Made by a program: the position numbers and the translations under genes. DNA of 24,236 bases. Origin: a virus. Shown here piece after piece: positions 3,704-17,811 of the stretch (its first letter is position 1; each line of letters starts with the position of its first letter). The stretch is from the IMG/VR virus record IMGVR_UViG_3300023171_000039, positions 1 through 24,236 of that record. The stretch is one strand, 5' to 3'. The notes beneath the pieces were generated by a model. The model was not told where the DNA came from. It saw only the letters and a program-made list of their open reading frames with translations, and ran no database searches.

Positions 3704-3801
3704 GGCTTACCCTTCTTCCTTGATTGGGAGAGTTGTTTTGAAAGGCGGATGAGCTTGGTTTTGACCGAAGGATTCCGCTTGGGAGGGGTGAAGGCGGTCA
3801 T
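3700..3801 (-). CDS. Micro-gene, basic 33-aa peptide
   Basis: A 33-codon frame (MTAFTPPKRNPSVKTKLIRL, ending SQSRKKGKP) has an ATGA overlap at both ends: its ATG lies in the stop of the methyltransferase gene, its stop in the start of the next gene. This double coupling is the main evidence that it is translated. The peptide is very basic (about ten Lys or Arg) and may bind nucleic acid, or may only serve to carry ribosomes to the next gene. Confidence 0.55.
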   Translation of the reverse strand: MTAFTPPKRNPSVKTKLIRLSKQLSQSRKKGKP

Positions 3802-4451
3802 GCTGCGGCCTCGTCAAACTTGGTCGCCTGGCTGCCCCACGACGCCCATCCGGGCCGGGATTGCCGAGCGAACAATTCGACGTATGGCCCGTCGAACATC
3901 GTCTGGATCCGCTCGTACTGCTCATCAGGCTTCCGGCTATGCTCACGGCGAGGCGCCCGAAGTGCGTCGCTTGGCATTACCTCGATGAAGTCGCGCACGC
4001 TGCGCACACCGGCGGGTACGGAACCTAGGCCAAACAGATCAGCCGGCAGTTCTGCGCGCAGGCTTGGATTCCCACGGGTGGCCAAAAGGCATGGCTCTAG
4101 ATTTTTCCGAGTCCCGTACCCGCCGCCGAAAGCATATTTGCCCGTCTCGGGATTGAACTTGATCCACTCCCAGGCGAGCCCGGCAAACTCAAAGCCCCAC
4201 GCGCGGATTAGTCGCTCCCAATTCGGCATGAAAGGCCACGTCATCCAGATGAACAGCGCGCAATCATCAGCAGCGAGAATGTCCACCGGCATTGCCGCGA
4301 TCTCATCCATGGGCATGCAATCGTAGTGGGCTTGGGCAGATTTCCCCTGCCCCTTGTCGGAGAACTGTTCGAACGCCCACGGCGGATCAGCGAGGATCAC
4401 CCGGTACCCGCCGATTGGGCGCATCTCGACAAACTGACGTGCGAGCGTCAT
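3798..4451 (-). CDS. MT-A70 family adenine-N6 DNA methyltransferase, 217 aa
   Basis: The catalytic motif DPPW is at residues 22-25 (VILADPPWAFEQF), with the SAM-binding and core stretches ALFIWMTWPFMPNWERLIRA and LEPCLLATRGNPSL downstream, as in the MT-A70 family. Phage members methylate adenine in their own DNA, commonly as protection against host restriction. The ATG at 4451 has GGGGAAAG upstream and overlaps the previous stop (ATGA). The longer frame to 4655 runs through two other genes and is rejected. A second, unrelated adenine methyltransferase lies at 10997. Confidence 0.9.
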   Translation of the reverse strand: MTLARQFVEMRPIGGYRVILADPPWAFEQFSDKGQGKSAQAHYDCMPMDEIAAMPVDILAADDCALFIWMTWPFMPNWERLIRAWGFEFAGLAWEWIKFNPETGKYAFGGGYGTRKNLEPCLLATRGNPSLRAELPADLFGLGSVPAGVRSVRDFIEVMPSDALRAPRREHSRKPDEQYERIQTMFDGPYVELFARQSRPGWASWGSQATKFDEAAA

Positions 4452-4612
4452 GCGTCTTTCCCCTGCTTGAGAGAGGCGGACAAATCTGCAACCACATGGG
4501 CGCGAAGATGCGTCAGCCGTATTTTCTCGCCTGTTGCATCCTTTGGTGCCTCTGCATTGGCTATCCGGGATAGAGCCTGAAGCTTTTCTTCGGGGGTGGT
4601 GGTGGAGAGCAT
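4448..4612 (-). CDS. Small hypothetical protein, 54 aa
   Basis: Reads MLSTTTPEEKLQALSRIANA and ends in LSASLKQGKDA; mostly helical and charged. It begins two bases after the stop of the 114-aa gene and ends in an ATGA overlap with the methyltransferase start, so it fills the gap exactly. Its place directly ahead of the methyltransferase suggests co-translation with it. No family recognised. Confidence 0.6.
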   Translation of the reverse strand: MLSTTTPEEKLQALSRIANAEAPKDATGEKIRLTHLRAHVVADLSASLKQGKDA

Positions 4613-6668: not shown

Positions 6669-7067
6669 CTATGCGACTCCAGAATTTATGTGAGCAGCGC
6701 TTACACTATGAACGTGGATCAGAGCGATCGACCGGGCGCGTCCCGGGATGCGGGTGACAAAGCCACGGTCGACCAGCGCGGTTACAAGCGCCTGGGCATG
6801 GCTAAGGCTGATGCCGAGGCCACGAGCCATCTCACGAAGGGATGGTGCCGGGTCGCGCTCATTGGCGCATTGAGCTTCGATGAACGACAGCGCCGACAAC
6901 TGAGGGGCTGTCAGGCCGAAGCGCGAGGCGGTAGGCTTTGGCCCAGCCTGCTGCCCAGCCATGAATGCGAGAGCAACCATCTCGACCTGTTCGGTTTCGA
7001 GATGTGCATCCCAATGATCCGCCGCCCACTGATAGATTTCTGGTGGAATATTGGCCGGGATGGTCAT
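6669..7067 (-). CDS. Winged-helix regulator with LexA-type DNA-binding domain, 132 aa
   Basis: Residues about 50-115 (LTAPQLSALSFIEAQCANER, then DPAPSLREMARGLGISLSHA and VDRGFVTRIPGRARSI) follow the N-terminal winged helix of LexA. There is no S24 peptidase domain, so it cannot cleave itself. The first 48 residues are a separate helical part. It follows the Cro-like gene with an ATGA overlap and precedes the GapR-like gene without a gap, so it is an immediate-early regulator. Targets might include phage operators or host LexA sites; that is inference. Confidence 0.75.
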   Translation of the reverse strand: MTIPANIPPEIYQWAADHWDAHLETEQVEMVALAFMAGQQAGPKPTASRFGLTAPQLSALSFIEAQCANERDPAPSLREMARGLGISLSHAQALVTALVDRGFVTRIPGRARSIALIHVHSVSAAHINSGVA

Positions 7068-7267
7068 GCTGCGGCCCCCTCAGATCGCGGCGCAAAGAAG
7101 TCAGCAGGCTTCACCAGCCCATCGCTCACCCGCTCGATTTCCTCGATTACGGAGAGCGTCAGATGCTCACCACGCATGTAGCGGTGGACCTGTTGCCTGC
7201 TCTTTTTGAGCTTCTTGGCGAACTCGGTTACGGTGGAGTGCTGTCTTATGTAGGTTTCAAGCTGCAT
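7064..7267 (-). CDS. Cro/YdaS-like helix-turn-helix protein, 67 aa
   Basis: A short HTH protein (VTEFAKKLKKSRQQVHRYMR GEHLTLSVIEEIERV) divergent from the repressor gene, in the position of cro. It is the first gene of the leftward operon. There is no Shine-Dalgarno before the ATG, and a 19-bp operator (7267-7285) abuts the start codon. With a -35 TTGACA at 7303-7298 the transcript would begin at or near the ATG, so leaderless translation is likely. It probably turns off the repressor gene and tunes early transcription, as Cro does. Confidence 0.8.
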   Translation of the reverse strand: MQLETYIRQHSTVTEFAKKLKKSRQQVHRYMRGEHLTLSVIEEIERVSDGLVKPADFFAPRSEGAAA

Positions 7268-7285
7268 GTAACAGTTTTTGCTACA
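7267..7285. promoter_or_regulatory. Operator O1 (19-bp dyad)
   Basis: TGTAACA-GTTTT-TGCTACA is a near-perfect dyad with 7-bp arms and 5-bp spacer. It matches the reverse strand of the site at 9108-9126 in 18 of 19 positions. It covers the start region of the leftward Cro/GapR operon. Confidence 0.75.
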
Positions 7286-7343: not shown

Positions 7344-8084
7344 ATGGCCAATAACTGTCGCATGGCAAATTGGCTCGCACCGTTCCTCGAGAATTCACCA
7401 GTTACCTCGCAGGAGGAGCTTGCGGACAAGCTCGACGTGTCGCGCGCCACGATCAATCGGCTGGCAAATGACCACTCGAAATTGAAACGCGATCGCGCTG
7501 AGGCGATGGCAGCACTGCTGAAAGTGACTGCGGAAGACCTAATGCTAAATCGCTTGCCGTGGGCGGCGAAGACCAGCCCACCGGTGGATGACGCCGCCGT
7601 GACGCGGGGTAAGCGCCTGGGCAAGGCAATCCTCGTCGCAACCGTCGAGGCCGGCGCTTGGCGTGAGGTTGACGAGCTCGATCAATCTGACCCGGAGTGG
7701 GTCGCCGTGCCGCCCGACGATAAATACCCAGACGCGACACAAGAGGTTTACGCCGTTTCTGGCGACAGCATGAACGCGCTGCAGCCCCATCCTATTACGC
7801 CTGGCTCCCGTCTGGTCGCCGTGCGGTACGACGAGATCGCGTTCCGCGCGCCGCTCCGCGATGGGCTTGTCGTTGTCATCCAGCGGTCACGCAATGGCGG
7901 CCAGGAGCGCGAGCTATCGGTAAAGCAAGTCGCCTGGTTCGATGACCGGATAGAGTTTCAGCCGCGATCTACAAATCCAAAACACAAGCCGATCGTAGTC
8001 GAGCACGACACCTGGGAGGATAACGGGGTCGAGGTCGCGATCGTGGGGTTGGTTAGAGATGTCATTCACAGGCTGCCGGGATAA
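7344..8084 (+). CDS. CI-like S24 repressor, self-cleaving type, 246 aa
   Basis: The N-terminal HTH is at residues about 21-45 (TSQEELADKLDVSRATINRL). A C-terminal S24/LexA peptidase fold follows, with the Ala103-Gly104 cleavage site (VEAGAWREV), the catalytic Ser142 (SGDSM) and Lys194 (ELSVKQVAW). Such proteins keep lysogeny and cleave themselves when stimulated by RecA filaments. The start is uncertain: ATG at 7344 or 7362, neither with a Shine-Dalgarno. The frame opens back to 7278 but that would run over operators O1 and O4. It is divergent from the Cro-like gene and followed after 15 bp by a membrane-protein gene. Confidence 0.9.
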   Translation: MANNCRMANWLAPFLENSPVTSQEELADKLDVSRATINRLANDHSKLKRDRAEAMAALLKVTAEDLMLNRLPWAAKTSPPVDDAAVTRGKRLGKAILVATVEAGAWREVDELDQSDPEWVAVPPDDKYPDATQEVYAVSGDSMNALQPHPITPGSRLVAVRYDEIAFRAPLRDGLVVVIQRSRNGGQERELSVKQVAWFDDRIEFQPRSTNPKHKPIVVEHDTWEDNGVEVAIVGLVRDVIHRLPG

Positions 8085-8099
8085 TCGGAGGGGGAATTT

Positions 8100-8435
8100 A
8101 TGGCCAATCAAGGGGGCGGTGCCTTAGTGTTTCTGGCACTTGGCGGGCTATGGTTTTGGCTGGGGAACCCAAGCAAAGATGCGGCCGATTGGTTCTATAA
8201 GACCGATGCGGCGCCATGGGAAAAGGTTGACGCGTTTTACTACCCGAGCAAGTTCGACCTATCCGTCTGGCATTCCACAAAGGGCTTAAAGAACGCAGAA
8301 GCCTGTCGAGACTGGGTCTATGAGATGGCTGCGGTGCGCGCTGATCCAGGCCTTGTTCGTGGAGACTATGAATGCGCCCTTGGTGCACCTTACAACTCGA
8401 ACGGCATGGAGGTGTACCGCGCTACCGTCAAATAG
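8100..8435 (+). CDS. Membrane-anchored protein cotranscribed with the repressor, 111 aa
   Basis: The first 25 residues hold one transmembrane or signal-anchor segment (GALVFLALGGLWFWLG). The rest is probably periplasmic and has two Cys (AEACRDW and DYECAL, about 30 residues apart) that could form a disulfide. GGAGGGGG stands seven bases before the ATG. The 15-bp gap to the repressor suggests expression in the lysogen. In other phages such genes alter the host surface or exclude superinfecting phage, but no family is recognised and that role is inferred from position only. Confidence 0.75.
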   Translation: MANQGGGALVFLALGGLWFWLGNPSKDAADWFYKTDAAPWEKVDAFYYPSKFDLSVWHSTKGLKNAEACRDWVYEMAAVRADPGLVRGDYECALGAPYNSNGMEVYRATVK

Positions 8436-8458: not shown

Positions 8459-8767
8459 TCACTGCAACCGAGACAAATCAAACGCCCGCAGTATGCTCTG
8501 TATTTCCATCACCGCCATCGGATCGAGATGGCACATGGTCATGGCTCCATCAGCCCTCGGTTCTTCACCAGGCTCAGGCAGCTTGTTCATGATCGGCACG
8601 ACAGTGAATTCGTCGTCGCCGCTCAATGGTCCGAATGGCTCGATCCTGAACCGGTAGAGCGGGAAATGCGCCTCAAGGTATAGGCTCAGGCGCTCGGCCG
8701 CCCACTCTGTCGCCTTGCCCTGGTTCGCTGGCGCAATGACGATGAAGTCCTTCACGCTATGCTGCAT
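8459..8767 (-). CDS. Hypothetical protein in a LexA-boxed operon, 102 aa
   Basis: Reads MQHSVKDFIVIAPANQGKAT onward, a probable alpha/beta fold with an acidic second half. The ATG at 8767 overlaps the end of the zinc-ribbon gene by 11 bases; a longer frame to 8818 lies inside that gene. It is the second gene of a leftward operon behind a GTTC-N7-GTTC LexA box and converges on the repressor operon. A SOS-induced antirepressor would fit here, but no similarity is recognised. Confidence 0.65.
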   Translation of the reverse strand: MQHSVKDFIVIAPANQGKATEWAAERLSLYLEAHFPLYRFRIEPFGPLSGDDEFTVVPIMNKLPEPGEEPRADGAMTMCHLDPMAVMEIQSILRAFDLSRLQ

Positions 8768-8981
8768 GGCGCGATCCAGCGATTTTGAACGCGACAATTT
8801 CAGCGAACGGCGCCTCACATTTCGGGCAGCGGAACTGCATATTCCTCACCTCGGGGAATTCCATCAACTGATCGCCGTCCATTGGCTCGCCCTGCCCCGC
8901 CGGCAGCACTACGCTTTGCTGGTACAATTTCGCGCATCCTCCACACCGCACGTGGAGCAAGACCGAGCTTCCGTCACACAT
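8757..8981 (-). CDS. Zinc-ribbon protein, first gene of a LexA-boxed operon, 74 aa
   Basis: Two CxxC pairs, Cys13/Cys16 (RCGGCAKLY) and Cys52/Cys55 (RCPKCEAPF), 36 residues apart, mark a small zinc ribbon that may bind protein or nucleic acid. The ATG at 8981 has a strong AGAAGGAGG five bases upstream. The LexA box at 8996-9010 lies 14 bp before the start, where LexA would block transcription. It thus should be made during DNA damage. By position it is a candidate antirepressor or induction factor; that is inference. Confidence 0.7.
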   Translation of the reverse strand: MCDGSSVLLHVRCGGCAKLYQQSVVLPAGQGEPMDGDQLMEFPEVRNMQFRCPKCEAPFAEIVAFKIAGSRHAA

Positions 8982-8995
8982 CGCCGCCTCCTTCT

Positions 8996-9010
8996 GTTCC
9001 TGTTATGTTC
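8996..9010. promoter_or_regulatory. LexA (SOS) box upstream of the 8981 operon
   Basis: GTTC-CTGTTAT-GTTC is an exact GTTC-N7-GTTC, the LexA site of alphaproteobacteria. It lies 14 bp before the start of the zinc-ribbon gene and about 65 bp from the phage operators O2/O3. An exact match by chance in a given short intergenic region is unlikely, and a second exact match also lies before a gene start (17797-17811). Confidence 0.75.
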
Positions 9011-9075
9011 TCATTAAGACCGGGAACACAGAAAGAGTCGAGTCGCAAAACCCGTAAAATGCCAGCAAAGGGTGA

Positions 9076-9094
9076 TGTTGCAGTTTATGCTACA
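9076..9094. promoter_or_regulatory. Operator O2 (19-bp dyad)
   Basis: TGTTGCA-GTTTA-TGCTACA has the same 7-5-7 layout as O1 and O3 and differs from the reverse of O3 at two positions. It lies 32 bp, about three helical turns, from O3, upstream of the rightward promoter. Confidence 0.7.
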
Positions 9095-9100
9095 TCACAG

Positions 9101-9128
9101 TTGACAGTGTAGCATAAACTGTTACATT
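9101..9128 (+). promoter_or_regulatory. Rightward early promoter
   Basis: A consensus -35 TTGACA (9101-9106), a 16-bp spacer and a -10 TACATT (9123-9128) precede the rightward early operon that ends in int. Operator O3 fills the spacer, so repressor binding would exclude RNA polymerase. Transcription should start near 9135. Confidence 0.65.
9108..9126. promoter_or_regulatory. Operator O3 (19-bp dyad)
   Basis: TGTAGCA-TAAAC-TGTTACA is the reverse complement of O1 with one mismatch. Together with O2 it also forms a perfect 14-bp inverted repeat, CAGTTTATGCTACA (9081-9094) and TGTAGCATAAACTG (9108-9121). It sits between the -35 and -10 of the rightward promoter. Confidence 0.75.
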
Positions 9129-10603: not shown

Positions 10604-11000
10604 GTTCGGCAAGCCCGTGAAGCGTGAAGCCCTAAAGCGCTCCGAAGGCCGCTGCGAGGCGATTGGCGAGGTCTACGGCCTATCCGCCGGCCAGCGCTGC
10701 AATGCGCCTCTGAGCCATGGCGTCGAGTTCGATCACTACCCATCGCCGGCTGGCGACCCCGGCAGCGACACAATCGAAAACTGCGTTTCGTGCTGCCGCA
10801 CCTGCCACAGCTTCAAGACCCGCACCTATGACGTGCCACTGCAGGCCAAGGGCAAGCGGGTCAGCGACAAGCACCTGGGCATTGGTCGTGCTTCCGCATG
10901 GCCGCAAGCCCAGCGGAAGAAAGCCCCTCCCCAGCACAACGCAACACGCCGTCTGACCAAGGGTGTCGGACTGGCATATTTCGAGGATCCCCAGCCATGA
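10590..11000 (+). CDS. HNH endonuclease, 136 aa
   Basis: The HNH core is Asp48-His49 (VEFDHYPSP), Asn64 (DTIENCVSC) and His73 (CCRTCHSFKT), with structural zinc likely held by Cys22/Cys37 and Cys68/Cys72. The first 20 residues are basic (FGKPVKREALKRSEGR). GGTGGAGG precedes the ATG at 10590. The protein is a free-standing metal-dependent nuclease, between an ASCH gene and a Dam-type methyltransferase gene. The pair could act as nuclease and protecting methylase, but the genes are not otherwise like a restriction system. Confidence 0.85.
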   Translation: MPRHEFGKPVKREALKRSEGRCEAIGEVYGLSAGQRCNAPLSHGVEFDHYPSPAGDPGSDTIENCVSCCRTCHSFKTRTYDVPLQAKGKRVSDKHLGIGRASAWPQAQRKKAPPQHNATRRLTKGVGLAYFEDPQP

Positions 11001-11512
11001 ACTCGACTGTAAACCAAACGCCTGAGACGATCAGGGCGAACCATCAGAGCTTGCTGACGCCTGCGGAGAATAAGTTCCATGTCGGCAACGGCGGCGACGG
11101 CAAGCACTATTGGCTGACGCCGCCCGAATTGTACGCGCAACTGGACGCTGAATTTGGCTTCACATTTGACCCCTGCCCCTACCCCCTGCCGCCCGGCTTC
11201 GATGGCCTGACATGCGAGTGGGGTCAGTGCAGCTACGTCAATCCGCCGTTCGGATCCATCATGCACGAGGGCAAGAAGAAAGGCCCAACGGCATGGGTCC
11301 GCAAGGCCATCGAGGAATGGCAAAAAGGCAAGACCGTCGTCCTGGTTTACCCGGTCGATAAGTGGCTGCTGATGATGGTCAGGGCCATCTTTGGCGAAGC
11401 GGCTGACATTCGAAACCTGGGCGATGTGAAGTGGGTCGCCACGGAAGATCGAAGCGTCGGCAAGGGCACAGGCAGGCACATCGCGGCTTTCATCCTGCGA
11501 GCAGCATCATGA
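10997..11512 (+). CDS. Phage Dam-type DNA adenine-N6 methyltransferase, 171 aa
   Basis: The family signature YWLTPPELYAQLDAEFGFTF (38-57) with DPCP, then the catalytic NPPF (82-85; SYVNPPFGSIM), and later RNLGDVKWVATEDR match the phage DNA N-6-adenine methyltransferase family. These enzymes transfer methyl groups from SAM to adenine in phage DNA and protect against restriction. The ATG is fixed by an ATGA overlap with the HNH gene, and the end again overlaps the next start. At 171 aa it has the usual family length. Confidence 0.9.
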   Translation: MNSTVNQTPETIRANHQSLLTPAENKFHVGNGGDGKHYWLTPPELYAQLDAEFGFTFDPCPYPLPPGFDGLTCEWGQCSYVNPPFGSIMHEGKKKGPTAWVRKAIEEWQKGKTVVLVYPVDKWLLMMVRAIFGEAADIRNLGDVKWVATEDRSVGKGTGRHIAAFILRAAS

Positions 11513-17796: not shown

Positions 17797-17811
17797 GAAC
17801 GAAATGAGAAC
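17797..17811. promoter_or_regulatory. Second LexA (SOS) box
   Basis: Read leftward it is GTTC-TCATTTC-GTTC, an exact GTTC-N7-GTTC with the T-rich spacer common in alphaproteobacterial LexA sites. It lies 37 bp before the HTH gene at 17759 and just after the last late gene (stop at 17827). Confidence 0.75.

Follow-up and report, generated by a model that had tools for sequence, protein, structure and literature searches.

What does a small operon under LexA control do when it faces a phage repressor that itself looks cleavable? The question is raised by a virus record of 24,236 bases, IMGVR_UViG_3300023171_000039, which forms the window analysed here and to which all positions refer. In its immunity region, two short genes run towards a repressor of the S24 (LexA/CI) type, and the first-pass annotation proposed them as a LexA-controlled operon that may act as an antirepressor. 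We favour, with a probability of about 0.52, a LexA-controlled module that would inactivate or sensitise the repressor through its C-terminal domain (CTD) in the immunity region of temperate phages, a reading drawn from sequence comparison. The parts that matter most are these.

Positions 8757 to 8981, minus strand: zinc-ribbon protein of 74 amino acids (aa) with C13, C16, C52 and C55 and a strong Shine-Dalgarno (SD) sequence, AAGGAGG; invariant core of the module and candidate partner of the repressor CTD.
Positions 8459 to 8767, minus strand: 102-aa partner with a predicted beta-alpha-beta-beta-alpha, DinI-like fold; optional in the family.
Positions 8996 to 9010, minus strand: LexA box, GAACATAACAGGAAC, reading GTTC-N7-GTTC on the plus strand; perfect alphaproteobacterial type.
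Positions 9013 to 9018, minus strand: putative -10 hexamer CTTAAT, 2 bp upstream of the box, conserved as T/A-rich sequence at that distance.
Positions 9036 to 9041, minus strand: putative -35 hexamer TCGACT, separated by a 17-bp spacer and conserved 30 or 31 bp before the box.
Positions 7344 to 8084, plus strand: phage repressor with an HTH_3 N terminus, an S24 CTD and the Ala-Gly, Ser and Lys of a cleavable repressor.

The arrangement first described holds in the sequence: a perfect box (GTTCCTGTTATGTTC at 8996-9010) lies 14 bp upstream of the ATG (8981) of the strong-SD zinc-ribbon gene, the open reading frame (ORF) of the 102-aa protein is coupled to it by an 11-bp overlap, and both genes converge on the repressor. 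GTTCN7GTTC is the LexA consensus in Caulobacter (PMC12700426). The window is expected to contain 0.6 matches to GTTC-N7-GTTC and contains two (8996-9010 and 17797-17811), so a single box in 24 kb is unremarkable by chance, and its significance comes from conservation in relatives. An alignment search extended the relatives of the 102-aa protein to 31 viral and five genome loci (Devosia, Pseudorhizobium and a Rhizobiales genome), nearly all of them with GAAC-N7-GAAC 0-15 bp before the zinc-ribbon ATG. In the wider set of 78 viral homologues, counted after five start codons had been corrected by hand, a perfect box precedes the zinc-ribbon gene in 74 and seven of the eight bases are kept in the other four. 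Conservation across homologous loci rules out a one-off chance box.

The promoter around the box is conserved as well. In 69 of the 72 distinct promoters the box is preceded, at 30 or 31 bp, by a TCGACT-like hexamer, and a T/A-rich -10 hexamer just before the box is conserved among them. Among homologous promoters the box stands anywhere from 0 to 21 bp ahead of the ATG but at a fixed distance from the hexamer, so it is no by-product of the SD sequence. That possibility was considered because the box in Rhizobium phages contains AAGGAG, and it was rejected; box and SD are separate in the group of the window and in G960 (L180). Given the fixed spacing, LexA would cover the predicted start site, and the comparison shows a predicted promoter of the sigma-70 type whose start site the LexA box overlaps. 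On comparative grounds there is strong support for placing this conserved immunity-region operon under LexA control. The locus has the GTTC-N7-GTTC box at a promoter that marks the SOS regulon and the small protein under a LexA-box phage promoter that marks LexA-controlled phage antirepressors.

Is this gene tied to the repressor? The first-pass annotation had proposed looking for co-occurrence with this repressor type in other phages, and co-occurrence is what we find. Repressor CTDs adjoining zinc-ribbon genes form one family. In the reverse test, an alignment of this CTD was searched against viral contigs and the best 80 of 139 loci were examined; 78 of the 80 have a convergent zinc-ribbon gene, and in the two exceptions (L071 and L093) the contig breaks off shortly after the repressor. 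Bacterial genomes from GTDB give the same picture, with strong CTD and zinc-ribbon matches falling in the same five of 200 genomes of one family, at the same seven loci in six of 397 genomes of one order, and together in one of 385 genomes at the level of the class. These amount to 12 distinct genomic loci with both, one of which recurs between the GTDB samples, and the zinc-ribbon gene is present in 12/12. The same three of 50,697 phage records hold both CTD and zinc-ribbon gene. Dozens of weaker S24 repressor matches in the same GTDB genomes have no zinc-ribbon gene, and across 40 weaker S24 loci, viewed up to 6 kb per side, a box-driven zinc-ribbon ORF facing the repressor was seen only at L240, which is the same as L206. 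Hosts, where named, are Hyphomicrobiales.

Two loci stand apart from this pattern. At L206 (2469-2756), a distant S24 repressor (G828) faces the zinc-ribbon ORF just mentioned, which has a perfect LexA box just upstream together with the GAATCGATTCGAC element and, in L206/L240, was not detected by the zinc-ribbon profile. At L022 (5772-8133), the box, zinc-ribbon and 102-aa genes are present, no S24 CTD was recognised within 6 kb, and a 162-aa XRE-type ORF lies nearby.

The same counts bear on the proposal that the operon is an SOS-induced moron, acting in exclusion, host division or repair with no part in repressor control. Morons are often found between cI and the left operon, as with the rex genes of lambda, and small zinc-ribbon proteins are diverse in function. 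Morons are patchy, however, whereas the zinc-ribbon gene accompanies every non-truncated member of the CTD family examined and, one possible remote case apart, was not detected beside related CTDs; we consider a moron quite unlikely.

The zinc ribbon tracks the CTD rather than the DNA-binding domain of the repressor. At 40% identity the DNA-binding domains fall into five groups (25, 23, 9, 3 and 3 of 63), and 73 CTDs form a single group at at least 50% identity. Pairwise distances between zinc-ribbon proteins correlate with those between CTDs at r 0.80 and with those between N-terminal domains at 0.39; for the CTD and the N-terminal domain of the same repressor the value is only 0.46. Linked phage genes are not independent and distant N termini saturate, so these values are supportive and no proof. 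BLAST single-linkage places most N-terminal domains in one cluster (63 + 10), and the case for distinct DNA-binding domains therefore rests on the 40% grouping together with the distance correlation. Because the zinc ribbon follows the CTD across differing DNA-binding domains, action on the CTD is predicted. Co-occurrence, correlated divergence and the analogy with Tum, GfoA and PSP3 support a functional tie between zinc ribbon and repressor, and a small SOS-driven gene travelling with one CTD type probably helps to wake the virus.

A different explanation of the linkage is that the operon targets RecA, LexA or another host factor and is joined to the CTD merely through a shared, exchangeable immunity cassette. 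A second Devosia soli prophage fits this view, in that a homologue of the 102-aa protein stands there by itself under a LexA box, beside another, different S24 repressor. Yet the N-terminal domain of the same cassette is swapped freely while the zinc ribbon stays with the CTD, and the link holds despite up to about 2 kb of unrelated genes between the two, which makes a host target unlikely.

Within the zinc-ribbon family, Cys13, Cys16 and Cys52 are invariant and Cys55 is kept in at least 90% of members, forming a predicted metal site; in L053 and L054 the final Cys is replaced by Asp. Sequence searches with this protein against Pfam, PHROGs, NCBIfam and PDB gave weak zinc-ribbon matches at most. 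By profile, the family weakly resembles Pfam Com, with a best E of 0.0019, and Fin, which 8 of 39 members match with E 8.6e-4 at best; the window protein stays under every Pfam cut-off, and no family member matches strongly. Com and Fin are themselves small zinc-ribbon regulators, in contexts that differ from that of the window gene. Conservation of the coding sequence speaks to a further proposal, in which SOS transcripts enter the repressor gene and lower repressor synthesis, the small proteins being secondary. The tail-to-tail layout is indeed conserved, stop codons nearly abut in several phages, and in the window no strong terminator is predicted to separate the genes; but the repressor lies anywhere from about 0 to 2.5 kb away, and a coding sequence with near-invariant cysteines is hard to square with transcription as the active agent. 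We regard this proposal as very improbable.

The repressor carries an HTH domain, an Ala-Gly site, the GDSM Ser and the VKQ Lys, as expected of an S24 repressor, and bears out the RecA-type cleavage site noted at first. Among 98 strong CTDs, the P1 Ala, Ser and Lys are kept in 98/98 and the P1' Gly in 95/98, with Ser in the other three. With these residues retained, the repressors look RecA-cleavable, unlike the Gifsy repressors, and two induction inputs, one through LexA and one through RecA, as first suggested, are plausible. We also looked among the 98 CTDs for a repressor without its cleavage dyad, in which case an antirepressor would be a necessity, and found none. Ala-Ser replaces Ala-Gly at the presumed cleavage site in the L069, L071 and L072 repressors. 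The repressor gene at L033 (6599-7213) is in broken frames while the near-identical L032 prophage of the same genome has it intact.

In the mechanism we propose, SOS induction would lead to LexA cleavage and production of the zinc-ribbon protein, which would bind the repressor CTD and then either break the repressor dimer or promote self-cleavage. Induction would thus have a LexA input alongside the RecA input, and the optional DinI-like protein would probably tune RecA filaments, as is supposed for DinI in 186, PSP3 and Gifsy. By the sequence evidence, the module could add a second input that induces, or it could modulate repressor cleavage.

The retained cleavage residues also suit the opposite arrangement, a brake, in which the zinc ribbon would bind the CTD and protect it when RecA drives cleavage, the DinI-like protein would damp RecA itself, and a brief SOS response would spare the prophage. 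Delaying cleavage makes sense where nearly every member keeps the residues for it, and DinI can inhibit cleavage in E. coli. A phage protein, GIL01 gp7, is reported to protect LexA from cleavage (PMC4551915). Against a brake, the LexA-controlled phage operons of known effect in PMC3121763 (Tum, AntC and GfoA/GftA) promote induction, and we hold the brake to be rather doubtful, though one to take seriously. The Bacillus phage GIL01 gp7/LexA pair resembles the favoured module in being an SOS switch whose S24-type repressor is modulated by a small protein of the phage (PMC4551915); gp7 strengthens host LexA, whereas the candidate partner of the window zinc ribbon is the repressor of the phage itself.

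Tum of phage 186 acts on 186 CI, which is not known to be cleavable in the manner of the lambda repressor. The annotated LexA site of 186 overlaps the promoter, as the box does with the predicted promoter of the window operon. The tum gene is far from the immunity region, unlike the window operon, which lies inside it and faces the repressor, and the protein families differ, as does the apparently cleavable S24 repressor. 186 tum and the split tum of PSP3 and Fels-2 are LexA-controlled phage operons with an antirepressor part followed by a DinI part (PMC3121763), an order that the window operon would share: PSP3 and Fels-2 have an antirepressor gene and then a DinI gene, 186 Tum fuses both, and Gifsy has dinI and then the antirepressor. 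The Salmonella Gifsy proteins GfoA, GfhA and GftA are likewise small and LexA-controlled, and they are linked to dinI (PMC3121763). From such an operon with dinI, one Gifsy antirepressor inactivates repressors with different operators (PMC3121763), which is the pattern matched by a zinc ribbon that follows one CTD. Unlike in Gifsy, the window repressor is a full-length S24 protein and the first protein of the operon is a zinc ribbon.

The 102-aa partner calls for a revision of the first-pass annotation, which had proposed both genes together as a candidate antirepressor operon. The two are not equal: the zinc-ribbon gene is invariant, and the 102-aa gene is absent from 13 of the 78 viral loci with a zinc-ribbon gene, making the zinc ribbon the core and its partner optional, and the partner looks DinI-like rather than like a second antirepressor. 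Four viral contigs have relatives of the 102-aa protein, and so do three published phages (RHph_TM3_3_3 and RHph_N28_2 of Rhizobium and phi3LM21 of Sinorhizobium), in all three of which the zinc-ribbon gene comes first and a CI/S24 repressor lies convergent behind. The AlphaFold model is confident (predicted local distance difference test score, pLDDT, 90) and has the beta-alpha-beta-beta-alpha order of the DinI family of RecA filament modulators, from which the protein differs in having little sequence identity and about 20 more residues. In an hhalign comparison, helix 1 and strand 2 share their register with a phage DinI/Tum profile at P 0.005, a value that 1 of 200 column shuffles equalled. 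Sequence searches of Pfam, PHROGs, NCBIfam and PDB found no family for it. A DinI-like function is plausible, and it gains weight from the logic of the operon, which recalls that of PSP3, Fels-2, 186 and Gifsy. In the second Devosia soli prophage (L265:2983-3938, L262), a LexA box and GACTCGACTC accompany the stand-alone 91-aa homologue of the 102-aa protein (hidden Markov model E ~1e-4), which is convergent with the different S24 repressor, as expected for a DinI-like modulator.

Several results weigh against a module acting on the repressor with a DinI-like partner. The best VIA-align match of the 102-aa model is DinI on a RecA filament (7ywa_A; Z 5.7, root-mean-square deviation 3.0, 69 residues), 1.1 in Z ahead of the next family, but this Z is weak, as values below 8 may reflect a common arrangement and lie within chance level. 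No 102-aa family member matches Pfam DinI, and Foldseek with the model gave nothing at E<0.001, nor anything among viral structures. The zinc-ribbon model (pLDDT 79) likewise had no Foldseek match at E<0.001 and no clear fold relative. The repressors targeted by Gifsy antirepressors are not cleaved, unlike the apparently cleavable ones here, and with cleavage residues kept, RecA cleavage alone could induce and an antirepressor would be dispensable.

The promoter of the operon has a second conserved element.

Positions 9035 to 9044, no strand assigned: tandem GANTC (GAGTCGAGTC on the plus strand), the CcrM methylation motif, overlapping the -35 hexamer.

Two to four GANTC sites lie within 50 bp before the box in 83 of 85 distinct promoters, compared with a background of 0.06 per 50 bp. 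Of 90 promoters, 83 have a pair within 11 bp, compared with 10 such pairs elsewhere in 1.02 Mb, and triples number 42 in promoters and none elsewhere in the same 1.02 Mb; the enrichment is partly due to the -35 hexamer itself. Host imuA promoters share the design, with a single GANTC in L253 and tandem sites in L260 and L261, and a phage-only feature is accordingly rejected. Conserved GANTC at imuA and ruvC has been attributed to overlap with the LexA motif (PMC7987155), an explanation that fails for the phage promoters because most of their sites are placed 28-40 bp ahead of the box. In Agrobacterium, CcrM depletion raises SOS genes, imuA included (PMC11514494). Control of the phage promoter by CcrM/GcrA is our hypothesis. 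We extend it, tentatively, to a new Hyphomicrobiales prophage switch with a CTD-dedicated zinc ribbon, in which the promoter would sense damage through the LexA box and chromosome methylation through two to three tandem CcrM/GcrA sites over the -35, and a second SOS input, subject to cell-cycle gating, would remove a cleavable repressor. The window encodes two adenine methyltransferase-like proteins, at 3801-4469 (minus; MT-A70, E 1e-25) and 10991-11512 (plus; Dam, E 3.5e-7), and phi3LM21 has an annotated CcrM-like methyltransferase.

The remaining features of the immunity region are as follows.

Positions 8100 to 8435, plus strand: 111-aa ORF between repressor and operon; other genes occupy this place in relatives.
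Positions 7064 to 7267, minus strand: Cro-like HTH protein, divergent from the repressor.
Positions 7267 to 7285, no strand assigned: operator-like repeat TGTAACAGTTTTTGCTACA between cro and repressor.
Positions 9076 to 9126, no strand assigned: two operator-like repeats (TGTTGCAGTTTATGCTACA and, inverted, TGTAGCATAAACTGTTACA) overlapping the rightward early promoter at 9101-9128.

With operator-like repeats TGTAACAGTTTWTGCTACA at about 7267, 9076 and 9108, the operon was rightly placed between repressor and operators. On the cro side, a 132-aa protein (6669-7067, minus) has a winged helix of the LexA type (Pfam LexA_DNA_bind, E 2e-8) and no peptidase domain, and could compete for LexA boxes; similar genes occur in L048-L052 and L014. 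The second GTTC-N7-GTTC of the window (17797-17811, minus) lies in the late region, where a possible small HTH gene follows after about 37 bp; the 15-mer of this match recurs in L121 at 404 with dissimilar flanks.

The literature searched, which included few subscription journals, contains no earlier description of the module and describes LexA-controlled antirepressors in other groups only. Known examples come from enterobacterial phages and, in the Gifsy case, go with repressors that are non-cleavable. Phage phi3LM21 was published with CI and Cro named and LexA unmentioned in the main text (PMC5537653). As far as the literature searched shows, LexA-controlled antirepressors as such are known; what is new lies in the families of the two proteins, in the place of their genes within the immunity region, in the tie to an apparently cleavable CTD and in how the promoter is built. 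If our reading is right, phages of nitrogen-fixing and soil Alphaproteobacteria gain a second SOS input, and the DNA-binding domains of their repressors are exchangeable around a constant induction interface. It would also bear on whether the SOS protein of one phage wakes heteroimmune neighbours with the same CTD, and tandem CcrM sites in the promoter would tie prophage induction to the host cell cycle.
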